From: a bacterium | GTDB lineage: Bacteria; Lernaellota; Lernaellaia; JACKCT01 | Assembly (NCBI GenBank): GCA_019912885.1 | Contig: JAIOHV010000064.1 | Span: 1 to 35,903, forward strand | Length of the DNA stretch: 35,903 nucleotides | Reading direction: 5' to 3' | In this document: positions 9,511-34,253 of the stretch, in pieces | How positions within the stretch are numbered: the stretch's first letter is position 1 | How the letters are laid out: the number at the start of each line of letters is the position of its first letter | Position numbers and translations under genes: made by a program | Notes under the pieces: model-generated | What the model saw: only the letters and a program-made list of their open reading frames with translations | What the model was told of the DNA's origin: nothing | Database searches by the model: none

Positions 9511-10035
9511 TTACGACTCGATGGAAGCCGCCGTCCGCTCGGTTCGCGAACGCAACGACTCGGTTGTCATGGTGACGCTCGTCATCGCCGGCAATTCGCA
9601 CGGCGCCTGAACCATGTCCCTCAAACTGATGCGCGAAAGCGCTTCCTCGACCACGTGGTTGATGCGCTGCCAATTTCCGCGCACCTGGCAGACATCCGCG
9701 TTGTCGCAGCAGCCGGCCATGCCTTCCTCGTCCACGACGACGCACTCCGTGATGGCGATCGGACCCTCGAGCGCGCGGACCACCTCGGCCACGTTGATCT
9801 GGCCCGCGGGTTTGGAAAGGCGATAGCCGCCCTTGGCGCCGCGCTGCGAAAGCAACAGGCCGTCGCGAGCCAGCAGCTTCAGAATCTTGCTCACCATCGG
9901 CACGGGCAGGTACGTCGCGGATGCGAGGTCCTTCGCGTTGTGCGTCTCGGGGTTGCTTGAATCGGCCGCGCCGTCCGACGCCATGTGCGTCAGAAGCACG
10001 ATCCCGTAGTCCGTCAATCGGCTGATGCGAATCAT
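9511..10035 (-). CDS. Rrf2-family Fe-S responsive regulator of the SUF operon
   Basis: This 174-residue Rrf2/IscR-type DNA-binding repressor opens with the winged helix [19 protein letters not shown]. The recognition region is [17 protein letters not shown], followed by the wing [11 protein letters not shown]. Cys98, Cys109, Cys110 and Cys116 form the cluster-binding region. Such regulators sense cellular Fe-S status through their own cluster and control suf transcription. It resembles the SUF-specific regulator subgroup. Being the first gene behind the promoter, and with an inverted repeat over the predicted start site, it very likely represses itself and the operon. About 30 residues after the last cluster Cys are Ser/Thr-rich and of unclear role. 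Confidence 0.92.
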
Positions 10036-16236: not shown

Positions 16237-17009
16237 CAAGAGTGCGCGCCATCGCCGTCGCCGTCCTGGCCATCGGTCTTTTCGCATGTACCATCGCCCG
16301 CGCCTCGGGCGAAGGCGCAGCGATGCTCTACAACCAGGGCAACGCGGCGTACGCGGCCGGCGATATCGACGGCGCGATCGAACGATACGAACAGGCGCGA
16401 AAGCAAGGCTCCGACGATCCGCGCCTTTTTTACAACCTCGGCGTCGCCCACATGAAAAACGGCGAGCTCGGGCAGGCGATCCGCTATTTCGCGATGGCCA
16501 GGCGCCGCGCGCCGCGCGATGGCGACGCGACGCACAACCTCGAATTTGCCCGCGAGCGCATCGCCGACAAGTTGCCCGACGAAGATCGCTCGATCGCGGT
16601 CCGCGTGACGCGCCTGCCGCTGACCGCGTTCACGGAGGGCGAACTGGCGCTCGCGTTCGCGCTCCTTTGGACCGCGGGTTTCGCGGTGCTGGCCTTCGCA
16701 TGGCCACGGCGGCACGGCGAAAAAATGCGCCGCGCCATCCGCGCGTCCATCGCCGGCGTGGCGCTTTCGCTTCTGATCGCCGGCTACGCCGTTTCGCACG
16801 CGGTGGACACGGCGCGCTCGCGCGCGGTCGTCGGCATCGACGAGTTGGCGGTGCGCAGCGGTCCTTCCGTCGATGACCCGACGCTCTTCACGATCCACGA
16901 GGGCCTGACGCTCGTCGTGCGCGAGGTGCGCGGCACGTGGTCGCTTGTCGCCGCGCCGACGGGCGCTTCCGGCTGGGTGCCGAACGAGACGCTGCTGCCG
17001 ATCGGGTGA
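16233..17009 (+). CDS. batE: BatE-like TPR and SH3-domain protein
   Basis: This 258-residue protein starts at GTG 16233, behind GGAGGT, overlapping batD by four bases. A signal sequence (VAVLAIGLFACTIARA) contains a Cys that could be a lipobox. Two TPR repeats lie at about 26-100 (LYNQGNAAYAAGDIDGAIERY, NLGVAHMKNGELGQAIRYF). Two hydrophobic segments follow at about 138-158 and 172-190. A C-terminal bacterial SH3 domain at about 198-256 has ELAVRSGPS and GASGWVPNETLLPI. The order TPR, two helices, SH3 is the BatE layout. It closes the operon, and a heptamer repeat begins within a few bases of its stop. Confidence 0.84.
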   Translation: MTRVRAIAVAVLAIGLFACTIARASGEGAAMLYNQGNAAYAAGDIDGAIERYEQARKQGSDDPRLFYNLGVAHMKNGELGQAIRYFAMARRRAPRDGDATHNLEFARERIADKLPDEDRSIAVRVTRLPLTAFTEGELALAFALLWTAGFAVLAFAWPRRHGEKMRRAIRASIAGVALSLLIAGYAVSHAVDTARSRAVVGIDELAVRSGPSVDDPTLFTIHEGLTLVVREVRGTWSLVAAPTGASGWVPNETLLPIG

Positions 17010-17013
17010 ATTC

Positions 17014-17048
17014 GGATTGCGGATTTCGGATTCCGGATTGCGGATCGG
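17014..17048 (+). repeat. GGATTNC heptamer array, 5 units
   Basis: Five 7-bp units of the form GGATTNC (the last diverged) begin four bases after the batE TGA. The 7-bp period is exact. Confidence 0.85.
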
Positions 17049-17106: not shown

Positions 17107-17160
17107 GTCCATCGAGTCCATTCGGTCCATTCGGTCCATTCGGTCCATGGCGTCCATCGC
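17107..17160 (+). repeat. GTCCATNNN nonamer array, 6 units
   Basis: Six perfect-period 9-bp units begin with GTCCAT; three in a row are GTCCATTCG. The array ends 32 bases before mutM. Confidence 0.92.
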
Positions 17161-25162: not shown

Positions 25163-25462
25163 GGAGTTCGGGCGCCAAACGATCGATTCCGCTCGCGGGA
25201 GATGGGGCCGAAGGTCTCGACCCTTGTCGGATCCCGCGGTGACGGAAGCCCCGGGGAGGGCGAAAACGTCGCATCGTCCTCCCCATCTTTGAAAACCGAA
25301 TCGTCGTTCGCCGGAGGGCCGCTTCGACCGATCGCGTCGAGACGGCATCCGGCAACGGCGGAATCTGCCGACAGTGGTGGCGCGAAAAGCAGCGCCGGGA
25401 TTCGAGCAACGACGATCACGTCAAAGGGGGATCGCAACGAAGCATTCTCTGATCAAGACAAG
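25163..25462 (+). other. Spacer before the micro-ORFs, possible leader or small RNA
   Basis: About 300 bases with no supported protein. A 99-codon open frame crosses it but has skewed composition and no ribosome site. Because a strong terminator lies at 25533-25573, this stretch could be the body or leader of a short transcript. No clear promoter was found. Confidence 0.35.
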
Positions 25463-25501
25463 ATGACAACCGAAACGACAAAGGAAGGAATGTTCCGATG
25501 A
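25463..25501 (+). CDS. Micro-ORF of 12 codons
   Basis: ATG 25463 opens a 12-residue frame rich in Thr and Glu (MTTETTKEGMFR) that ends in TGA at 25499-25501, overlapping the next micro-ORF as ATGA. It has no clear ribosome site itself, but it carries the AAGGAAGG that serves the next one. Coding status is uncertain. Confidence 0.25.
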   Translation: MTTETTKEGMFR

Positions 25502-25545
25502 AAGACACGGACAATCCACCGGATGGTTTGAAGGCCCGCGTGTGA
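25498..25545 (+). CDS. Micro-ORF of 15 codons ending inside a terminator loop
   Basis: ATG 25498 follows AAGGAAGG by nine bases and encodes MKDTDNPPDGLKARV. Its TGA is the first codon of the loop of the terminator hairpin at 25533-25562, so a ribosome reaching the stop would sit on the hairpin. This resembles a leader peptide, but no plus-strand gene lies downstream. It may be a very small protein or a regulatory RNA remnant. Confidence 0.35.
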   Translation: MKDTDNPPDGLKARV

Positions 25546-25573
25546 AACAGAGCACGCGGGCCGATTGTTTTTT
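25533..25573 (+). terminator. Strong intrinsic terminator
   Basis: GGCCCGCGTG (25533-25542) pairs perfectly with CACGCGGGCC (25553-25562) around a 10-base loop, followed by GATTG and six T (25568-25573). It is the strongest terminator in the window and is followed five bases later by a heptamer array. Confidence 0.88.
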
Positions 25574-25577
25574 GAAA

Positions 25578-25640
25578 GGAAACAGAAATCAGGAAACAGG
25601 AAATAGAAAATAGGAATTAGGAAACAGAAAATAGGAAATA
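25578..25640 (+). repeat. GGAAATA-type heptamer array, 9 units (pair 1, left)
   Basis: Nine consecutive 7-bp units vary around GGAAATA (GGAAACA, GAAAATA, GGAATTA). It is the left arm of an inverted pair whose right arm is 25735-25803. Confidence 0.93.
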
Positions 25641-25693
25641 GTGAAGCCCGACCGCGATCTTGGAACGTGCCGGCCTCAGCCGGTTGATGTCGC

Positions 25694-25734
25694 GATGAAT
25701 CGGCGCATCGGCAATTTGGCCGTTGCGATTCATC
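25694..25734. repeat. Hairpin in the core between the pair-1 arrays
   Basis: GATGAATCG (25694-25702) and CGATTCATC (25726-25734) are perfect 9-bp inverted repeats; CGGC/GCCG inside can extend the stem. It abuts the right-hand heptamer array. Confidence 0.6.
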
Positions 25735-25803
25735 TATTTCCTGTTTCCTATTTTCTATTTCCTGTTCCTGATTTCTATTTCCTATTTCCTGTTTCCTCTT
25801 TTC
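25735..25803 (-). repeat. GGAAATA-type heptamer array, 10 units (pair 1, right)
   Basis: On the plus strand the units read TATTTCC with variants; one unit is 6 bp. The array runs into the 3' end of the GH15 gene and encodes its stop codon and last residues. Confidence 0.93.
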
Positions 25804-27581
25804 TCTCGATACCGATTCACGTAGTTCGCGGCCATGATGTAGCCCAGGTGCGAAAACGCCTGCGGGAAATTGCCCGTGTACGCGCCGCTTGCCGGCTCGA
25901 TCTCCTCGCTCATGAGACCGCTTTCGCCAAACAGCTTTTCGAATTCGTCGAGCAGGCGTTCAGCCGCGTCGACGTCCTCGATGATGGCGAGGGCCGAGAT
26001 TAGCCAGTAGGTGCAGAGGATGAACGCCTCCTCGTCGCCGGGCACGCCGTCGGGCGTCCGGTAACGGTAGATGAACGCGTCGCCGTGGCCGAGCTCGCGC
26101 CGAGTGTTTTCGATGATCGTCCGTGTACGCGGATCGTGCTTGTCGAGATAATGCAGAAGGACGAACAGGAAATTCGTGGCGTCTTGCGACGGGGCGCCGG
26201 GTGATTGGCGAAGCACGCCGCGTTTGGCATCGTAGCAATGCCCCTCGATGAACGCCCGGATTTCGCCGCGAAACGCCTCGAGCTTTGCGACCCGGTCGTC
26301 GGGTAGCCCAAGCAGTTCCCGCATGCGGATCAGGCGATCGATGCCGACCCAGCACATCACCTTGCTGTAGGTAAACTCCACCGGCTCGCGGCGCACCTCC
26401 CAGATGCCCGCGTCGGGCGTCCGCCAGCGTTTTTCAATCTGCTCGCCAAGCCAAATTGCGATGTTCTTCATGCCCTCGGTGATCGCCACGCCGTGCCGGG
26501 CGGAGAAATAGATCGAGTCGATGATGATGCCGTAAACGTCGAGCTGGAACTGGTCGGACGCGAGATTGCCCTTGCGCACCGGCACGGAATTTCGATAGCC
26601 CGCCAGGTGTTCGAGCCGCTTTTCGTCCGGGATGATCTCGCCGCGGATCGTATACATGTGACGCACCCGCATCGCGCCGTGGCGCGTCAGGACGTCCTCG
26701 AGATAGTGGAAAAAGCGGGTGGCCTCCGCGTGCATGCCCAGCACGGAAAGGGCATAGAGCGTGAACGTCGCGTCGCGCAGCCACACGTAGCGGTAGTCCC
26801 AGTTGCGCACGCCGCCGATGGCCTCCGGTAGCGAGGTCGTCGGCGCGGCGACGATCGCGCCCGTCGGGTAGTACTGCATGAGCTTGAGCGTGATCGCGCT
26901 TCGTATGAGTCTCTCGCGGCGGAATTCCGGAAATTTTCCGCCGGCGACCCATTCCCGCCAGAATTCTTCCGTGTGCGCTTCGTAGGGATGATCGAGCCCG
27001 GCGAACGGCGTGCCCTTTTCGTCGCCGTGGTCGAGCACGACGCGCGTGCGTTCGCCTTCGGCGAGTTCGAACGCGATGACGCATCCGGCCGTCGCGCCAT
27101 CGATGCGCGCGCGCCGGGGCAGGAACAGCCGTACCTCGTGTTCGCCGTCGCGAAAACGAAGGCCCGGACCGGGGCGATCGTCAAGGCGCGGCGCGCCCGA
27201 GCCGAATCCCGGGCGCGGATCGAAATGCAGGCGCACGGTTCCGCTTCCGCGAAGCCCGCGAAAGGACCGCACGATGACGTGCAGCGGGCAGGCGTCCGCG
27301 GGTTGCGGCTCCATCATGTCGCGCACGGAAAATTCGAAATCGTCGCCGACAAAGACGGTCTCGACGATCGCGGTTTCGGGCCGATAGGTGCTTTTCGCGC
27401 TCCGGCCGTCGGGCAGCACCGAAAAGCGCCCGCCGCGCTCGTCGTCGAGAATCGCCGCGAACATCGAGGGCGAATCGAAGGCCGGCCAGCAGAGCCAGTC
27501 GATCGACGCCTCGCTCGATACCAACGCGGCGGAGTGCAGATCGCCGATGAGCCGATAGTCCTTGATGGGGCGATACGCCAT
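25782..27581 (-). CDS. GH15 glucoamylase/trehalase-like glycoside hydrolase
   Basis: This 599-residue cytosolic protein has an N-terminal beta-sandwich (about 1-220; YRPIKDYRLIGD, SIDWLCWPAFDSPSMFA) and an (alpha/alpha)6 catalytic barrel (about 225-590). RNWDYRYVWLRDA at 259-271 lines the active site. Glu395 in GIWEVR is the probable catalytic acid and the Glu pair in SEEIEP (558-563) the probable base. NFPQAFSH at 571-578 closes the barrel. Such proteins act on alpha-glucans or trehalose; which one cannot be told. No signal peptide is present. ATG 27581 begins the conserved MAYRPI start. Its final residues (REKRGNRK) and TAG stop are written by a heptamer repeat, so the C-terminus has been altered by the array. 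Confidence 0.92.
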   Translation of the reverse strand: MAYRPIKDYRLIGDLHSAALVSSEASIDWLCWPAFDSPSMFAAILDDERGGRFSVLPDGRSAKSTYRPETAIVETVFVGDDFEFSVRDMMEPQPADACPLHVIVRSFRGLRGSGTVRLHFDPRPGFGSGAPRLDDRPGPGLRFRDGEHEVRLFLPRRARIDGATAGCVIAFELAEGERTRVVLDHGDEKGTPFAGLDHPYEAHTEEFWREWVAGGKFPEFRRERLIRSAITLKLMQYYPTGAIVAAPTTSLPEAIGGVRNWDYRYVWLRDATFTLYALSVLGMHAEATRFFHYLEDVLTRHGAMRVRHMYTIRGEIIPDEKRLEHLAGYRNSVPVRKGNLASDQFQLDVYGIIIDSIYFSARHGVAITEGMKNIAIWLGEQIEKRWRTPDAGIWEVRREPVEFTYSKVMCWVGIDRLIRMRELLGLPDDRVAKLEAFRGEIRAFIEGHCYDAKRGVLRQSPGAPSQDATNFLFVLLHYLDKHDPRTRTIIENTRRELGHGDAFIYRYRTPDGVPGDEEAFILCTYWLISALAIIEDVDAAERLLDEFEKLFGESGLMSEEIEPASGAYTGNFPQAFSHLGYIMAANYVNRYREKRGNRK

Positions 27582-27676
27582 ACGCGTTGACGTTAGCGGG
27601 CGCGCCGCCCGGCGCAAGGGCGCGAATCACATTTTTTTCCGCGAAGACGAGAAGGGATCGCACTTTGCGGTGAACT

Positions 27677-27958
27677 TCAGCCGCCGCTGACCGCCGGGAA
27701 GATGTGCACGCGCGCGCCGTCGGCAAGGGGCGTCGCGAGGCCGGCGAGAAAACGGACGTTCTCGTCATCGACGAAAACATTGACGTGCCGGCGCACCTCG
27801 CCGGTTTCGGTCATCACGCGATCGCGCACGCCGGGATGCGCGCGAAAGAGCCGGTCGAGCGCCTCGCCGACCGTCGCGGGCGCGCCGTCGAGTAATACGC
27901 GGTCGCGCCCCTCGGTGAAGACACGAAGCGGCGTGGGGACGTGGACGATGACGGGCAT
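27677..27958 (-). CDS. MoaD/ThiS family sulfur-carrier-like protein
   Basis: This 93-residue beta-grasp protein ends in the diagnostic GG after HIFPAVSG. Ubiquitin-like carriers use this terminal glycine to carry sulfur as a thiocarboxylate for molybdopterin, thiamin or other sulfur chemistry. ATG 27958 has GGAGG five bases upstream; the longer reading to 27979 lacks support. No E1-like adenylating enzyme or moa/thi gene lies nearby, so the client pathway is open. It is transcribed toward GH15, about 95 bases away. Confidence 0.85.
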   Translation of the reverse strand: MPVIVHVPTPLRVFTEGRDRVLLDGAPATVGEALDRLFRAHPGVRDRVMTETGEVRRHVNVFVDDENVRFLAGLATPLADGARVHIFPAVSGG

Positions 27959-27994
27959 GAACGCCTCCGTAACTTGCAAGCATTATCGGCGATG

Positions 27995-28021
27995 GCATTC
28001 GCCATTCGCAATTCGCAATTC
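27995..28021 (-). repeat. GAATTGC/GAATGGC heptamer array, about 4 units
   Basis: On the plus strand, units GCATTC, GCCATTC, GCAATTC and GCAATTC follow each other with a 7-bp period. It lies between the divergent moaD-like and uvrD genes and matches the 34074-34101 array in opposite orientation. Confidence 0.8.
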
Positions 28022-28098
28022 CCCATTGGTGCCGTTTCGGTTATGCTTCGCACGGCTGCGTACGCCGCGACAATCCTCGCCGCGTCCCATACCCAAAA

Positions 28099-30465
28099 AT
28101 GAACGAAACACTTCCCTTCGCCACCGCCGACGATCCCCTCCTCGCGCCGCTGAACAACGAGCAGCGCCAGGCCGTGCTGCATGGCGAGGGGCCGCTTGTG
28201 ATCTTCGCCGTCGCCGGTTCGGGCAAGACGCGCGTGCTGACGCATCGCATCGCGCACCTCATTGACCGCCGCCGCGTGGAACCGTACGAAATCCTGGCCG
28301 TCACCTTCACGAACAAGGCGGCGGACGAGATGCGCCGGCGCCTTTCTTCGATGCTCGGCCCGCGCGCGTATGGGCTTTGGGTCGGCACGTTTCACGCCAC
28401 CTGCGCCCGGATTCTGCGCGAGCACGGCGAGGCCGTCGGCCTGTCGCCGCGCTTTTCGATCTACGACGATTCCGACCAGCGCGCGTTGCTGAAGGACATC
28501 TACCGGCGCCTCGATCTCGACCCCAAGGCGTTTGACCCGCGCATCGTCGCCTCGCTTCTCGACGAGGGCAAAAACAATCTCGTCGCGCCGTCGACGCTCG
28601 CCGAAAGGCTGCGTCCGCCGGCGCGCGATTGGGCGCGCACGATCGTCTCGGAATACGAAAAAGCGCTGCGTGAAAACAACGCGGTTGATTTCGGCGATCT
28701 GCTCGTGATGGCGGTCAGGGCGCTCGAATCGAGCGAAGCGGCACGCACGTACTACAGCCGACGTTTTCGCCACGTGCTGGTGGACGAATTTCAGGACACG
28801 AACTTCGCGCAGAAGCGCTTCATCGAGCTGATCCTGAACGCCCAGGGCAATTTGTGCGTCGTCGGTGACGACGACCAGAGCATCTACCGCTGGCGCGGCG
28901 CGAATATCGAAAACATTCTCGAATTCGAATCGCACTTTCCCGGCGCGCGCCGCGTGATCCTGGGGCGCAACTACCGCTCCAGCTCGAATATCCTCGCGGT
29001 GGCCGGGTCGATCATCAAGCACAACCGCGGTCGCGTCGCCAAGGCGCTCATCACCGACAACGAAGCGGGCGCGCGCGTGCGCCTTTTCCGCGCGGACAGC
29101 GAATACGACGAGGGGCGCTTTGTCGCCGCGCAGGTGCTCGACCTGATCAAGCGGCAGGGGCTGTCGGCGTCGGATATCGCCGTTTTCTACCGCGTCAACG
29201 CCCTCTCGCGCGTGCTCGAGGAAGAACTGATGCGCGCGGGCGTGCCGTTCATCGTCGTCGGCGGCACGCGGTTCTACGACCGCAAGGAGATCAAGGACAT
29301 CCTCGCGTACCTGCGCCTGGCCGTGAATCCCGCGGATGGCGTCTCCGCCAAGCGCGTCATCAACGTGCCGTCGCGCAAGATCGGCGCGAAGTCGATCGAG
29401 GCGATCGACATTTTCGCGGCCCGCGACGGCGTGTCATTTCTGGAGGCGGCACGCGCCGCGCTGGCCGAGGATTCGTTGCCCAAGGCGGCGCGCGAGGGCG
29501 TGCTGCGCTTTCTCGAAGTCGTCGAGGCCATCACGAAAAAGGCCGACGACGCGCCGGTGCCCGAGGTGATCCAGTACGCCATCGAGCACACGGGATACCT
29601 GGCGATGCTTATGGCCGACCCGAGCGTGGAGGCGCTGTCCCGAAAGGAGAATCTCGGCGAATTGCACGAGGCCGGCTCGCAGTTCGCCCGGCGTAATCCC
29701 GACCTGCGCCTTGCGGACTACCTCGAACAGGTCAGCCTGGCGCAGGACGCCGACCTGGTCACCGACGAGAACGAGGCCGTGCGGCTTATGACGCTGCACA
29801 ACGCAAAGGGTCTCGAATTCCCCGCGGTGTTCATGGTCGGCCTGGAGGAAAAACTGCTGCCGCACGCGCGCGCGATGGACGGCGGCAACGCCGAGATCGA
29901 GGAGGAGCGGCGCCTTTGCTACGTCGGCGTGACGCGCGCGCGCCGGCACCTGACGCTTTCGTGCGCGGCGCGGCGCCGCACCTACAGCGGCGAGCAGGGT
30001 TACTCGCGGCCGAGCCGGTTTCTCGACGAGATTCCGGATGATTTGATCGAGCCGCTCGGTTTTTCGCCGAGGCCGTCGCTTTGGGAGATGCCCGGCGCGA
30101 TCGGATCTTCCCCCGGGGGCGCGGCGCCGGAGCGCGCGGTATTCCGCCGCCCGCCCAGCTTCGAGCGCACGCGACAACCGTTTGCCTCGGACTGGAAACC
30201 CGGCCGGCCGTCGAACGGCGCGCCGCAAGGCGGCGCGAACGTTGATATCCCCGGCGAGGGCGACACGTATTACGACTACACGGACACGCAGGAGGGCGCG
30301 GGCTACCTTGCGCCCGGGATGCGCGTGACGCATCAGAAATTCGGCGCGGGCCGCGTGCTCGCGCTGAACGGCCAGGGCGACGCGGCCAAGGTCATCGTGC
30401 GTTTCGAGGGCGGCGTCGGAACCAAGACGATGCTGCTGAAGTTCGCGAATCTGACGAGGAAATAG
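28099..30465 (+). CDS. uvrD: UvrD/PcrA-type superfamily 1 DNA helicase
   Basis: This 788-residue 3'-5' ATP-dependent helicase serves nucleotide-excision and mismatch repair or replication fork clearing. Motif I is AVAGSGKT at 37-44. Motif Ia is VTFTNKAADEM, motif II VDEFQDT, motif III GDDDQSIYRWRGA, motif IV GRNYRSS, motif V TLHNAKGLEFP and motif VI YVGVTRAR. A disordered Pro/Gly-rich linker leads to a C-terminal Tudor-like domain (VTHQKFGAGRVLAL, then ANLTRK), known in PcrA/UvrD to contact RNA polymerase. ATG 28099 fits the family start. Its TAG stop is the last three bases of the first GGAAATA repeat unit plus one base. Confidence 0.95.
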   Translation: MNETLPFATADDPLLAPLNNEQRQAVLHGEGPLVIFAVAGSGKTRVLTHRIAHLIDRRRVEPYEILAVTFTNKAADEMRRRLSSMLGPRAYGLWVGTFHATCARILREHGEAVGLSPRFSIYDDSDQRALLKDIYRRLDLDPKAFDPRIVASLLDEGKNNLVAPSTLAERLRPPARDWARTIVSEYEKALRENNAVDFGDLLVMAVRALESSEAARTYYSRRFRHVLVDEFQDTNFAQKRFIELILNAQGNLCVVGDDDQSIYRWRGANIENILEFESHFPGARRVILGRNYRSSSNILAVAGSIIKHNRGRVAKALITDNEAGARVRLFRADSEYDEGRFVAAQVLDLIKRQGLSASDIAVFYRVNALSRVLEEELMRAGVPFIVVGGTRFYDRKEIKDILAYLRLAVNPADGVSAKRVINVPSRKIGAKSIEAIDIFAARDGVSFLEAARAALAEDSLPKAAREGVLRFLEVVEAITKKADDAPVPEVIQYAIEHTGYLAMLMADPSVEALSRKENLGELHEAGSQFARRNPDLRLADYLEQVSLAQDADLVTDENEAVRLMTLHNAKGLEFPAVFMVGLEEKLLPHARAMDGGNAEIEEERRLCYVGVTRARRHLTLSCAARRRTYSGEQGYSRPSRFLDEIPDDLIEPLGFSPRPSLWEMPGAIGSSPGGAAPERAVFRRPPSFERTRQPFASDWKPGRPSNGAPQGGANVDIPGEGDTYYDYTDTQEGAGYLAPGMRVTHQKFGAGRVLALNGQGDAAKVIVRFEGGVGTKTMLLKFANLTRK

Positions 30466-30499
30466 GTAATAGGAAGCAGGAATTAGTAAATAGAAAATA
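30458..30499 (+). repeat. GGAAATA-type heptamer array, 6 units (pair 2, left)
   Basis: Six 7-bp units begin inside the last two uvrD codons and the stop. The matching inverted array is 30608-30641. Confidence 0.9.
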
Positions 30500-30508
30500 G
30501 AGTTAAGG

Positions 30509-30535
30509 CGCGCCGTGGCAATGCGGCGCGTTTTT
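30509..30535 (+). terminator. Intrinsic terminator after uvrD
   Basis: CGCGCCG (30509-30515) pairs with CGGCGCG (30524-30530) around an 8-base loop, followed by five T. It lies in the core between the pair-2 heptamer arrays, so the array sits between the stop codon and the terminator. Confidence 0.8.
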
Positions 30536-30607
30536 GCATTAGACGTGGGCGTTGGTTTCGTCCACCACGCGGTGCGCCTACCGTCACACCGCGCGGCCGA
30601 CCGACGC

Positions 30608-30641
30608 TATTTCCTATTTCCTACTTTCTATTTCCTCATCC
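30608..30641 (-). repeat. GGAAATA-type heptamer array, 5 units (pair 2, right)
   Basis: Plus-strand units TATTTCC, TATTTCC, TACTTTC, TATTTCC and a 6-bp TCATCC end at the redoxin stop codon (TAG, 30643-30641), sharing its last base. Confidence 0.85.
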
Positions 30642-31198
30642 TACGGATGCCACTTGATATTGCATCCGATGCTCGGGATCTGCGCCGTGTGGACCGGGTG
30701 TCCGGCGACGACGGCGTTGACCGCGTCGGTGAGATCGACGCCGGTGACGGGCACGCCGTTGCCCGGGCGGCTCCCGTCGAACTGCCCGCGGTACACGAGC
30801 TTGCGGTCCCTGTCATAAAGAAAGAAGTCCGGCGTGCACGCGGCGTCGAACGCGCGGGCGACGTCCTGCGTCTCGTCGTAAAGATACGGGAACTCGAAAC
30901 GCATTTCTCGCGCCTGTTCCGCGAGTTTGTCGGGCGCGTCGCCGGGATGCGTCCGCACGCTGTTGGAACTGATGCCGACGACGGCGCATCCGTGCCTGAC
31001 GAATACGCTTGTCGCATCGGCGAGCTTTTCTTCGATGTGCTTCACGTACGGGCAGTGTGCGCAGATGAACATCACGAGAAGCGCCGGTTTGTCCGCGAAA
31101 TCGGCGAGCGAGACGGTCTTTCCCGTCGTCACCTCCGGCAGCGAAAAATCCGGGCACGCGCTACCGAGTTCCTTCATGTGCGATGGCGTCAGAACCAT
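30641..31198 (-). CDS. Thioredoxin-fold redoxin with a CxxC motif
   Basis: This 185-residue protein belongs to the AhpC/TSA-redoxin superfamily. The redox site is CAHC within MFICAHCPYVKHIEEKL, the arrangement seen in a common group of thioredoxin-family proteins of unknown partner. ISSNSVRTHPGD and the cis-Pro region ACTPDFFLYD follow, and a late Cys occurs in SIGCNIKW. No signal peptide is present, so it is cytosolic. ATG 31198 has a strong GGAGGAGG six bases upstream. It converges with uvrD across the paired heptamer arrays. Confidence 0.88.
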   Translation of the reverse strand: MVLTPSHMKELGSACPDFSLPEVTTGKTVSLADFADKPALLVMFICAHCPYVKHIEEKLADATSVFVRHGCAVVGISSNSVRTHPGDAPDKLAEQAREMRFEFPYLYDETQDVARAFDAACTPDFFLYDRDRKLVYRGQFDGSRPGNGVPVTGVDLTDAVNAVVAGHPVHTAQIPSIGCNIKWHP

Positions 31199-31375
31199 GA
31201 GGGACCTCCTCCGAAAATGTCGATGTTGCTCAGGCGGTAGTGTCGTGAATCGGCGCGAGCATCGCAAGGGGGGCGGTCGGCGACCCGATGGCCGCAACGA
31301 TACCGACCGCGCGCTCCGCGTTCGCCGCGCGAACGCTTCGCTTGCGGCACTGACATCGCCATCGCGACATCGCGA

Positions 31376-32668
31376 CTAGGAGTTGTGCGTTCCCTGGACC
31401 TCGACGCGCTTGCGTTTGCGAAGGCGAAGCACCTCCGGCGCCTCGACGAACGCGGTCCTGAGGATCTTGGCGCCAAGTCCAACCAGGTGCGCCGTCGAAC
31501 GGTTGAACCGCGCGGGCGCCGGGCCGACTTCCGGAAAACCGCGGCCGTCGTGTTGCACGTTTTCCCAGTTGTTGAACAGGCGTCCCCATTCCGAGGCGAG
31601 CGCGGCGTGCGTGCGTTCGCGGCCGTGCGTCGGATACCAGTACATGTCGTGATACATCACGCTCGCCAGATACGCCCACGGCGCGGCCCACGTCTTGAGC
31701 GACCACTCGATCGCCTCCTTGAGCCCGCCCCAGTAAATCTTGTGCTGCATCTTGGCGGCGAAGGTGATGTTTTTCATCGGCCCTTCGAAGTTCCAGTTCT
31801 CCCGCGCCGCGTCGAGGTCGCCGACGATCTCGATCTGCGCCGGATCCGCGTTCCCCAGGCCGAGGTCGTGCGCGAGGCGCGTGAATTCGATTTTCATCGG
31901 GTCAAAGCCCATCAGCCGCGCGGCGGTCGCGTCGATCGCCACCTGGTCCGCGGACGCCAGCAGCACGTTTTTCACGTGCGGGATCATGCACCGCGGGCCG
32001 GGGCCGTCGCCGGCGAACGTCCCGTCCATGACGGCGAAAACGCCGCGGTGGATCTTCTTCTGGATCATCAGAAGATCGACGAGCGTTTTGTGGATGACCG
32101 GGTGCGTCCAGTGGCGATGCTCGTTGAGCAGGCCGCCGAACGCGTTTTTCATCGCGCCCGTCATCGTCGTAAAGACGTGCGTTTTGACGGTGGGCAGGTG
32201 GATGATGTTCTCGCCGATGAAGCGGCGCGGGATCATGAAGCCCTTGGGATAGACGTCGTTCAGGCACGTGAATTTCTGCGCCAGGTCGCCGACGGCCTCG
32301 CGCACGTCGACCCAGTCCTCCCCCTCGTACAGATGCACGTTACGCAGCCCGTGCGCCTCGACGACGTTGAGTTGCTTATTCTCGCGCTCGCCGAAGTGCG
32401 CGTCGATGACGACGGTGCGGTTGTGGCAGGCGTGGATGAGGTTCGGGTCGTACCCGTCCTGTTTCATCGCGCCGATCACGCCCTCGAGCTGCCAAGGCGT
32501 CGTCGAGCTGCCCGGAAAAAAGAAGTGCCAGGAGATGTTGACCTTCAGCGCGGTATCGGCGGTGCGATCGACGACGGACTGATAGTCCGCGAGATTCATC
32601 AGGCGATGGTAGTCCTCGAGCACCGTGGCCGGGCTCGTACGGACAATCGCGACTTTCGACTTCGACAT
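31376..32668 (-). CDS. DUF362 domain protein
   Basis: This 430-residue protein has the DUF362 core: KVAIVRTSPATVLEDY at the start, HLPTVKTHVFTTMTGAMKNA at about 165-185, VMDGTFAGDGPGP at about 225-237 and ADQVAIDATAARLMG at about 250-264. Many DUF362 proteins carry ferredoxin-like Cys clusters, but none is present here. The function of the family is not settled. ATG 32668 has GGGG upstream at suitable spacing. The C-terminal 120 residues are Trp/His/Tyr-rich and may be lineage specific. Confidence 0.85.
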   Translation of the reverse strand: MSKSKVAIVRTSPATVLEDYHRLMNLADYQSVVDRTADTALKVNISWHFFFPGSSTTPWQLEGVIGAMKQDGYDPNLIHACHNRTVVIDAHFGERENKQLNVVEAHGLRNVHLYEGEDWVDVREAVGDLAQKFTCLNDVYPKGFMIPRRFIGENIIHLPTVKTHVFTTMTGAMKNAFGGLLNEHRHWTHPVIHKTLVDLLMIQKKIHRGVFAVMDGTFAGDGPGPRCMIPHVKNVLLASADQVAIDATAARLMGFDPMKIEFTRLAHDLGLGNADPAQIEIVGDLDAARENWNFEGPMKNITFAAKMQHKIYWGGLKEAIEWSLKTWAAPWAYLASVMYHDMYWYPTHGRERTHAALASEWGRLFNNWENVQHDGRGFPEVGPAPARFNRSTAHLVGLGAKILRTAFVEAPEVLRLRKRKRVEVQGTHNS

Positions 32669-32728
32669 GTTCGTCCCCAACGGTTCAAAAGCGCCTCGCG
32701 GGCGCCGGGAATCCCGGATATTAAGTTA

Positions 32729-32777
32729 GGACAAAGGAAATAGGAAACAGGAAATAGGAAACAGGCAAGAGGAAAGA
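32729..32777 (+). repeat. GGAAATA-type heptamer array, 7 units (pair 3, left)
   Basis: Seven 7-bp units (GGACAAA, then alternating GGAAATA and GGAAACA, then diverged units) lie about 60 bases upstream of the DUF362 start. The inverted partner is 32855-32868. Confidence 0.9.
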
Positions 32778-32854
32778 GGTTTGAAGCGTTCGCGATTCGC
32801 GAGGACCGGTGAGACGAAGACCCCAGTTTTTTCCATCAGGCAACGCCCCGCCAC

Positions 32855-32868
32855 TATTTCCTGCATCC
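32855..32868 (-). repeat. Short GGAAATA-type heptamer array, 2 units (pair 3, right)
   Basis: TATTTCC and TGCATCC on the plus strand abut the TGA stop (32871-32869) of the pilin-like gene exactly. Confidence 0.65.
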
Positions 32869-33435
32869 TCAATTATGCAACGGACTGTGCAGGCACCACC
32901 ACTTTCCGTCGCCGTACCAGTAGTCGATGACCGGCACGTTGACTTCCCGATCGCGGTGCGTCGGGCAGAAGGAAGACGCCGTGAAGCCCGACCGGTCCAG
33001 GTCCACGACGAGGCGCTCGGGGTAAACGTCGCCGCCCTTCGGCGCGAGCACCACAACAAGCTGCGCGCCGGTGGTTTCGCGCCCCACGACGTAGGCGGCC
33101 GAGAGGCGTGCGAGATCGGCGCCGGCCTCGCGGATCGCCGCACGCGCCACGCGATCGACCTCGCCGCGGTTGTCGCGGCAGATCGGCACGTAACGCCGGT
33201 CGAGAAGGCGCCACGCCTTCGCGCCGACAAGCCCAAGGGCGATGACGATCGCGATCACGACAAGCAAATCGACGACCGCGATGCCGGCGCTAGTGGTTCT
33301 TCGCCTCGACGACAGGCGGCCCGATGACAGGAAACGCAATCGCCGGTTTGTCATCCTGAGCGAAGCGAAGGATCTCGCCACTTGCGCCGCCGGAACACTC
33401 AAATCCGCCAATCGTTCGTGCGTCGTGCGCCTCAT
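32869..33435 (-). CDS. Pilin-like single-helix protein of unknown function
   Basis: This protein of about 188 residues has a basic leader followed by AGIAVVDLLVVIAIVIALGL, which resembles a prepilin cleavage site and N-terminal pilin helix (G then IAVVD; pilins normally have Glu at +5, here Asp). A periplasmic domain of about 115 residues follows, with Cys in VPICRDN, SSFCPTH and KWWCLHS. ATG 33435 overlaps the upstream zinc-finger gene as ATGA, as is usual in this genome. A later ATG at 33354 falls inside a REP-like palindrome. No pilus assembly genes lie near. It could instead be an ordinary bitopic membrane protein. Confidence 0.55.
   Translation of the reverse strand: MRRTTHERLADLSVPAAQVARSFASLRMTNRRLRFLSSGRLSSRRRTTSAGIAVVDLLVVIAIVIALGLVGAKAWRLLDRRYVPICRDNRGEVDRVARAAIREAGADLARLSAAYVVGRETTGAQLVVVLAPKGGDVYPERLVVDLDRSGFTASSFCPTHRDREVNVPVIDYWYGDGKWWCLHSPLHN
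33353..33373. repeat. REP-like imperfect palindrome
   Basis: ATCCT and AGGAT flank GAGCGAAGCGA, giving a short near-palindrome that I recognise as a dispersed intergenic sequence in many unrelated bacterial genomes (from memory). Here it lies inside the leader-coding part of the pilin-like gene. Confidence 0.65.
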
Positions 33436-34031
33436 TCGATGCGCACCACGCCGTCAGGGTCCGCGTAGAGATTCACGAAACCGAACCGCGCCGCGCGCGG
33501 CACGGACAACACGAACCCGCCCGAGGCTTCGCGCACGTAATGGTAAATCTCCGCGGAGCGCAGGATGCGCGGCTCGGAATCGAGATATTCCGGGCGCAGG
33601 TCGGCGAGCGTTCGCGGATATTCGCCGTGTTCGTGGCGATACGCGAATATGCGCGAGAGCAGCCACGTGAACTGCGGCGCGGGCGATTCGATGAGCGCGA
33701 TGTGCGCGTCACCGAATCCCGCCGGTGGCGGCGCGCCGTCAAGCCGGGCGCCCAACAACATGTTCAATCCGATGAGCGCGGCCAGCACGAACAGAAGCCG
33801 CGGATTCACGCGGATCCCCGCGAACATGCCGCCGTTTTTTTCCACGCGGACCGGGGCGGCGCCGCGCGGCGATTTGCCGCCCGCGGGCAAGACCGGACCG
33901 CCGCCCGCGCACTCGGGGCAGGTGATGCGGTCGGACTCCTCGCCGAACGTCATGCACGCGGCGCAGATCGGCCGGCCGCATATGGCGCAGTCGTAGAGCG
34001 CGTCCTCGCCCAGATGCCGGTAGCATTTCAT
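33432..34031 (-). CDS. Zinc-finger membrane protein with a pseudopilin-like outer domain
   Basis: This 199-residue protein starts with a B-box/zinc-ribbon-like cluster: CYRH (3-6), CAIC (15-18), CAAC (23-26) and CPEC (38-41), enough ligands for two zinc ions. A Gly/Pro linker leads to one transmembrane helix at about 78-94 (RLLFVLAALIGLNMLLG). The outer domain has WLLSRIFAYRHEHGEYPRTL, a pattern like the GxYP region after the helix of type II secretion pseudopilins. ATG 34031 gives MKCYRH at the start. It is followed by the pilin-like gene with a 4-base overlap, suggesting a two-gene unit. Confidence 0.68.
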   Translation of the reverse strand: MKCYRHLGEDALYDCAICGRPICAACMTFGEESDRITCPECAGGGPVLPAGGKSPRGAAPVRVEKNGGMFAGIRVNPRLLFVLAALIGLNMLLGARLDGAPPPAGFGDAHIALIESPAPQFTWLLSRIFAYRHEHGEYPRTLADLRPEYLDSEPRILRSAEIYHYVREASGGFVLSVPRAARFGFVNLYADPDGVVRIE

Positions 34032-34073: not shown

Positions 34074-34101
34074 GGAATTCGCAATGCGGAATGCGGAATG
34101 C
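34074..34101 (+). repeat. GGAATGC heptamer array, 4 units
   Basis: GGAATTC, GCAATGC, GGAATGC and GGAATGC follow with exact 7-bp period, ending where the 98-bp inverted-ended element begins. Confidence 0.85.
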
Positions 34102-34199
34102 GGGTGCCACACTTTTACCGGGCCGCAGGCCGGGAAAGGCGTGCTCGACGTGTTGGGCACACCTTTGACCTCCCACGGTCGGTCAAAAGTGTGGCACCC
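34102..34199. repeat. 98-bp element with 15-bp perfect inverted ends
   Basis: GGGTGCCACACTTTT (34102-34116) is matched by its exact reverse complement at 34185-34199; pairing continues one step inward if one G is bulged. The interior has smaller GC stems. It has no coding capacity and abuts repeats on both sides. It looks like a REP/MITE-like non-autonomous element. Confidence 0.75.
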
Positions 34200-34253
34200 G
34201 TCCATCACGTCCATCATGTCCATCCGGTCCATCATGTCCATTTCGTCCATCAC
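34200..34253 (+). repeat. GTCCATNNN nonamer array, 6 units
   Basis: Six 9-bp units start with GTCCAT, with no gap after the inverted-ended element. It lies upstream of the SH3 lipoprotein gene. Confidence 0.92.

Follow-up and report, generated by a model that had tools for sequence, protein, structure and literature searches.

Oriented tandem arrays of many 7- and 8-bp words anchored at gene boundaries in a Lernaellota genome

The window analyzed here is the 35,903-nucleotide contig JAIOHV010000064.1 (assembly GCA_019912885.1) of a bacterium of the Lernaellota lineage JACKCT01, and it holds three inverted pairs of arrays of the heptamer GGAAAYA. These belong to a genome-wide set of boundary-anchored tandem arrays with 7- or 8-bp units of many families, in which the purine (G-rich) strand runs from a gene into the adjoining spacer, and it is well supported that a convergent pair is a spacer with such an array on both of its edges. 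The genome is a single draft of 4.8 Mb in 230 contigs. We sampled 1.47 Mb of it including the window, namely contigs 1–60 (the first 20 kb of each, with contig 46 taken from its far end), most of contigs 61–84 and a number of chosen contigs; the latter were partly picked for GGAAAYA arrays, so that the frequencies of this unit are somewhat inflated, and the other units are unselected. Gene calling relied on a home-made codon-phase Markov program (1177 genes, 84% coding), and individual gene edges may be wrong. A stricter threshold gave 97 period-7 and 22 period-8 non-coding arrays, and the working threshold gave 205 arrays.

The rule of position and orientation is the central observation. Among arrays in spacers of 100–800 bp, 141 have a purine strand that leads away from the nearer gene into the spacer and 26 have the opposite direction (p = 3e-20), and this inward orientation holds in convergent, tandem and divergent spacers and at 3′ ends (88:14) as well as 5′ ends (53:12). 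Likewise, 162 arrays lie nearer to the open reading frame (ORF) behind them, on the 5′ side of the purine strand, vs. 29 that lie nearer to the ORF ahead; for arrays of the unit GAAGATT, 20 of 24 are nearer to the gene behind. Arrays at 3′ ends begin a median of 2 bp from the stop codon (10–90% range, -8 to 12), and those at 5′ ends lie a median of 64 bp before the start codon (16–134), which leaves room for a promoter. Among spacers of 150–600 bp, the share with arrays is 49% for convergent, 29% for tandem and 20% for divergent ones. Single arrays point inward too (107:21), and thus pairing is a consequence of two occupied edges and not the cause of the orientation. To be adequate, an explanation must account for the singles as well as for the inward orientation, at either gene end and with many words.

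Tandem-repeat and inverted-repeat scans located the arms of the three GGAAAYA pairs in the window as follows, the left arms reading GGAAAYA on the + strand and the right arms on the - strand:

25577–25641, + strand: pair 1 left arm, about nine GGAAAYA units, purine strand rightward into the spacer
25642–25733: pair 1 core, 92 bp
25734–25806, - strand: pair 1 right arm, TATTTCC orientation
30457–30501, + strand: pair 2 left arm
30502–30606: pair 2 core, 105 bp
30607–30636, - strand: pair 2 right arm
32727–32779, + strand: pair 3 left arm
32780–32853: pair 3 core, 74 bp
32854–32869, - strand: pair 3 right arm, about two units (TATTTCC TGCATCC), weak and not callable by itself

The right arm of pair 1 overlaps the 3′ end of a GH15/trehalase-like gene (25782–27581, - strand). 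Its core carries a 9-bp hairpin (GATGAATCG/CGATTCATC) and, at its right end, the common end motif described below, read leftwards (GTTGCGATTC = GAATCGCAAC) and belonging to the right arm; the terminator at 25533–25570 lies outside the pair. The TAG stop codon of a PcrA/UvrD helicase gene (28099–30465, + strand) is provided by the left arm of pair 2, and the core of this pair contains the intrinsic terminator that serves the helicase gene (approximately 30507–30537; GGCGCGCCG..TGCGGCGCGTTTTT); the right arm begins 5 bp past the stop of an AhpC/TSA-family gene (30641–31198, - strand). The left arm of pair 3 is about 60 bp upstream of the start (approximately 32668) of a DUF362 gene (31376–32668, - strand) and antisense to it, and the right arm sits at the stop codon of the gene at 32869–33435 (- strand). 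Predicted RNA folds are very stable for the whole of pair 1 (-106.3 kcal/mol, z = -11.6) and for pair 2 (z = -5.9), and weak for pair 3 (z = -2.6). A search of window positions 25300–33300 with the Rfam covariance models returned zero matches. Eight period-7 arrays with a score of at least 11 are present in the window, vs. an average of 0.13 and at most 2 across 100 first-order Markov randomizations of it, and chance is thus excluded. The initial annotation, made from the letters of the window, had described the three inverted pairs with their orientation and spacing, had judged the arrays non-random and had noted inverted repeats or a terminator in two of the cores; the scans bear out the layout, and the remark on the cores is a fair one, given the hairpin of core 1 and the terminator of core 2.

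Throughout the genome there are 140 sites within one mismatch of AGGAAAYAGGAAAYAGGAA, and none for the same pattern read backwards. At the stricter threshold, 97 period-7 arrays are non-coding vs. 7 coding, and periods 4, 5, 10, 11 and 13 give only one or two non-coding arrays each. At least six unit families are present in all, at least five of heptamers in addition to the octamers. The heptamer words are GGAAAYA (with G-to-A and T-to-C variants), GGATYGA, GAAGATT, GGGAATT/GAATTGC/GGAATGC and GGTCAGC, and the octamer words are GGAAGGCT, GGCTGAAA and GGAAGTCT. Array lengths vary widely; one contig (L137) has about 20 near-perfect GAATTGC units at its very end (positions 1–151), and long arrays may break the assembly, so that the longest ones are probably under-counted.

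By the direction of the purine strand, 32 of the 37 neighboring period-7 pairs within 300 bp are convergent, 2 divergent and 3 in the same direction, so the paired layout proposed from the window does recur genome-wide. Among 36 convergent pairs, counting octamers and the weak window pair 3, 33 have two arms of one family, vs. a mean of 8.6 and a maximum of 21 after shuffling, and the cores have a median length of about 100 bp (15–244). The idea of a discrete element of arm, core and inverted arm does not survive, however. The cores share almost no sequence, and about 60% of the arrays have no partner and yet obey the same orientation rule. The initial annotation had held that arrays mostly unpaired and randomly oriented would speak against a paired element; the majority is indeed unpaired, but the orientation of the singles is far from random. 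A conserved element core was also considered and rejected, as the cores are unalignable apart from one local duplicate, a dispersed repetitive extragenic palindrome (REP)-like repeat, GTCATCCTGAGCGAAGCGAAGGATC, and the short end motif. The local duplicate is at positions 9740–10087 of contig L060, where an entire arm-core-arm unit is tandemly duplicated with two nearly identical 115-bp cores; pairs can thus be copied as a block.

The sequence (A/G)TCGCAA recurs just inside the arrays on the purine strand, irrespective of the unit, and is common to unrelated heptamer words and the octamers, which usually end in GGTCATCGCAA. TCGCAA begins 2–6 nt past the array end in 42 of the 205 arrays, vs. 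an expectation of about 0.5 based on array-free non-coding sequence, and 55 of them have the degenerate form (A/G)TCGC(A/G)(A/G) on the inner side at a distance of up to 14 nt, vs. 6 on the gene side and 0–1 on the other strand. The longer sequence CTGGAAGGTCATCGCAA, allowing one mismatch, has 57 copies in this genome and at most one in any of 385 others. The motif is equally frequent at 3′ arms (29 of 107) and 5′ arms (16 of 58), and its restriction to one kind of arm is therefore rejected. Three quarters of the arrays are without it, and both arms carry it in only 2 of the 36 pairs. The motif could represent either a recognition site or the last, most degenerate unit of the array.

Arrays in relatives were judged at the species level from pattern searches and small samples. 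A search of 60 genomes for AGGAAAYAGGAAAYAGGAA found zero matches in two same-family relatives and at most one in any relative. One same-family genome of a sister genus, G002, contains arrays of period 7 built from different words, GGACRAA among them, and one convergent pair has its arms 4 and 5 bp away from a stop codon each (contig L151, 3991–4019 and 4102–4129); the end motif is absent from the G002 arrays. G006 has several words, G001 has one array in 114 kb, and G003–G005 have essentially none in 72–86 kb each. The initial annotation had proposed comparing orthologous spacers. An automatic search for orthologous gene ends gave four usable pairs, with arrays in none. The PcrA/UvrD 3′ end of G002, which is orthologous to that at window pair 2, has a CACTGGC/GGCTGGC-type array filling the gap after the stop codon, with a lag-7 identity of 0.61 that was never reached in 20,000 shuffles, although this is one case and was found by eye; in G001 the next gene begins within about 20 bp of the pcrA 3′ end and there is no array. 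It is conceivable, if rather unlikely, that a single machinery anchored on (A/G)TCGCAA lays or reads many unrelated 7- and 8-bp words on about one in four of the sampled spacers as an oriented boundary system whose positions persist across genera and whose words change, the pcrA 3′ end (GGAAAYA here and a CTGGC-type heptamer in the sister genus) being an example.

A strand asymmetry is common to all of the words. The pyrimidine strand of the arrays is 37% C and 8% G and has 2.1 YC dinucleotides per 7 nt, vs. 1.0 in array-free spacers, and so it has the feature of Rho-dependent terminators (Rho utilization, or rut, sites) of C-rich, G-poor RNA with spaced YC. A chain of YC dinucleotides at 9–13 nt spacing is a rut descriptor quoted in PMC9160355. 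Such chains, of at least five YC 9–13 nt apart, are found in 66% of transcripts entering a gene through an array, 2% of those leaving and 20% of array-free spacer edges. The genome has a rho gene and encodes the RNA-binding domain of Rho, and in Escherichia coli Rho suppresses antisense transcription (Peters et al. 2012, as cited in PMC9160355). On the strength of the asymmetry, the rut-like incoming strand, the presence of Rho and the E. coli precedent, we tentatively favor the possibility that the arrays are two-way transcription boundaries that would spare outgoing transcription and stop incoming transcription, where Rho loading, termination and insulation are all inferred from the sequence. 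A polymerase leaving the gene would make the purine strand and be unaffected. One entering the gene from the spacer (sense past a 5′ edge, antisense past a 3′ edge) would make the pyrimidine strand, C-rich and G-poor with regularly spaced YC, a type of RNA onto which Rho loads. Arrays at 3′ ends could thus stop antisense invasion, those at 5′ ends, just upstream of the likely promoter, could stop read-through, and the arrays would probably arise and change length by slippage. Enrichment of terminators after arrays was looked for and rejected, as they are if anything depleted: intrinsic terminators are present at 3 of 31 convergent 3′ ends with arrays (10%) vs. 19 of 67 without (28%; p = 0.04), which is weak additional support for a boundary.

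Several observations weigh against a transcription boundary. The terminator depletion is weak, and it is absent in tandem spacers and overall. The rut-like score largely follows from composition and is not independent of the purine/pyrimidine bias of the arrays. Relatives that showed few arrays or none also encode Rho, array-free spacers evidently cope without arrays, and in G002 only a weak preference for the orientation is seen (16 of 26), on the basis of poor gene calls. Insulation alone does not predict arms of the same unit within pairs, nor does Rho explain the end motif.

The same-unit arms are better explained if a pair is a functional inverted repeat. Base pairing between its arms, in RNA or in the form of a DNA cruciform, would give a long hairpin tolerant of slippage, by which transcripts from either side of the spacer would be terminated or protected. 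The very stable folds predicted for pairs 1 and 2 and the abundance of arrays in convergent spacers agree with this, but pair 3 folds weakly, and the intrinsic terminator between the arms of pair 2 means that its second arm would seldom be co-transcribed with the first. Unit variants, moreover, match within pairs hardly better than between them (p = 0.05, 0.95 and 0.05 for three families), and most arrays keep their position and orientation with no partner at all; we consider a hairpin function unlikely. (The variant order likewise does not support the arms being recent inverted copies of each other.) The turnover of words, on the other hand, is better explained than by a boundary if the arrays have no function and are slippage-born simple repeats, 7–8 bp being a favored slippage length, that persist in spacers and acquire inverted partners by template switching between strands, with selection merely excluding them from coding sequence and promoters. 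An over-representation of heptamers in bacteria, with a suggested connection to polymerase slippage, is cited in PMC4692102. From one genus to the next the units are replaced completely, array length varies widely and some relatives have no arrays. Slippage nevertheless gives no cause for single arrays to point inward at both 5′ and 3′ gene ends, and it leaves unexplained both the array start 2 bp from stop codons and the sharing of one end motif by unrelated units; in Xanthomonas, too, the arrays occupy more stable and conserved spacers than controls (PMC4692102). A neutral origin of this kind is an unlikely alternative.

The tight 2–6 nt placement of TCGCAA and its occurrence with both heptamers and octamers, on the inner side and on one strand, are what would be expected if the arrays are bound by a dedicated DNA-binding or nucleoid protein that recognizes (A/G)TCGCAA together with the helical repeat of the 7–8-bp units and so marks or loops the spacers, and paired 7/8-mer sites in Geobacter metallireducens have been read as IHF/HU targets (PMC2700814). 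The scarcity of the motif (one quarter of arrays, both arms of 2 pairs), its absence from G002, units too different for one reader protein and the lack of a candidate protein make this improbable. Mobility in the manner of a REPIN or miniature inverted-repeat transposable element (MITE), in which the arrays would be the ends and a Y1 (RAYT) transposase would move the element, is very improbable. The layout is dispersed, inverted and multi-copy, the L060 pair was duplicated whole, and the genome has seven Y1-transposase matches; however, the cores are unrelated between copies and singles predominate. None of the five Y1 genes read has flanking arms, and only one has any repeat array within 2 kb (about 1.9 kb away, on contig L037, of the unit GGTCAGC, which is not one of the main families), the rest lying among palindromic REP-like repeats; RAYT mobility is thus unsupported. 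Five RAYT-like Y1 genes are at L124 17217–17588, L078 11362–11946, L037 ~11215, L031 44–634 and L136 ~10325, and several are embedded in palindromic repeat families of their own (e.g., AAGCGGGCCGGCGGCCCGCGGTCCCAGGAACGACGCA; GAACCGCGACCGTCAGGGAGCGGGTCTC). Finally, the layout and gene-edge rule match those of the Xanthomonas GGGAATC repeats, for which G-quadruplex formation was proposed (PMC4692102), but GG is missing altogether from GAAGATT (25 arrays), GGAAAYA and GGATYGA have no run longer than GG, and all obey the rule. Since GAAGATT and GGAAAYA cannot form three-tetrad quadruplexes, these are rejected as the common cause and are the most improbable of the explanations considered, though they may still act for GGG-bearing units.

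Three further single arrays are present in the window:

17013–17045, + strand: unit GGATTGC, 4 bp past the stop of the gene at 16323–17009 (+ strand), followed by GGAATCGCCATCG, which is end-motif-like
27996–28027, - strand: GCGAATG/GAATTGC-type unit in the spacer left of the helicase gene, adjoining CGATGGC, which is end-motif-like
34076–34103, + strand: unit GGAATGC, 45 bp upstream of the gene at 33432–34031 (- strand) and antisense to it

Directly after the GGAATGC array is a long inverted repeat, GGGTGCCACACTTTT...AAAAGTGTGGCACCC, at 34103–34200, and a similar sequence (GGGTGCCACATTTTTACCGG) follows another array. Arrays of period 9 of the GTCCATCAN type are found at window positions 34199–34253, 1605–1639 and 17107–17157; the word recurs in many spacers of the genome, and the 1.47-Mb sample has 17 non-coding period-9 arrays. 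A palindrome-like dispersed repeat of REP-like appearance at 33348–33376 (TGTCATCCTGAGCGAAGCGAAGGATCT) has about 20 near-identical copies in the sister genome G001, and more are present in several cores and spacers of the host genome.

Several known repeat systems resemble these arrays in part. Heterocystous cyanobacteria have short tandemly repeated repetitive (STRR) heptamers of several families in one genome, and degenerate heptamers of several families are found here too, although the words presumably differ from those of the STRR sequences. REPs and REPINs with their RAYTs are also dispersed inverted spacer pairs, often past stop codons, but REPs are palindromes of conserved sequence, in contrast to the tandem non-palindromic arms found here, with their unrelated cores and no link to the Y1 genes read. 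The layout itself is known, contrary to the initial annotation, which had not recognized it: Rehm et al. (2015) described Xanthomonas GGGAATC arrays with 70 and 75 convergent pairs in two genomes (PMC4692102). Those repeats (GGGAATC/GGGNATC, in X. campestris and X. axonopodis) lie sense just past stops or antisense ahead of starts, have average distances of 28 nt to the ORF behind and 160 nt to the one ahead, are depleted in divergent spacers and are conserved in location (PMC4692102). Dispersed 7-bp spacer arrays, convergent pairs beside singles, the gene-edge rule and depletion of divergent spacers are thus shared, and the distances compare as medians of 2 and 64 bp behind and about 170–185 ahead in our genome. 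In Xanthomonas, a different lineage, there is one GGG unit that is read as a G-quadruplex, whereas here there are at least six families including octamers and GG-less units; the quadruplex-capable GGGNATC is not matched, the main units being without GGG and GAAGATT without GG, and the same-family arms and common inner end motif are further differences. G. metallireducens likewise has tandem octamers and heptamers (“global regulator binding sites,” classes 1–3), mostly in opposite-strand pairs at variable distance and with several classes per genome, but these have 3–5 units of other words, some are linked to insertion sequences and a gene-edge rule is unreported (PMC2700814). In the account given in PMC4692102, Nostoc GGGGA(C/T)T arrays lie near ORFs on the non-coding strand and, unlike the arrays here, form few inverted pairs. 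The TAACTGA repeats of marine Beggiatoaceae are also intergenic heptamer direct repeats at a fixed distance from ORF edges, but they have one unit, are mostly forward with a single inverted case and end 1 nt before start codons (PMC4679880). What is new in the present genome is the number of words, octamers among them, the same-family arms, the array start at the stop codon and the common end motif.

The function of the Xanthomonas repeats has been framed around G-quadruplexes, and here the same layout is built with words that are unable to form them. A genome with many words separates what is essential (the inward purine strand, the start at the gene edge, the C-rich strand facing the genes and the end motif) from what is incidental (the word), and the layout and end motif shared across words make the function of such arrays testable.

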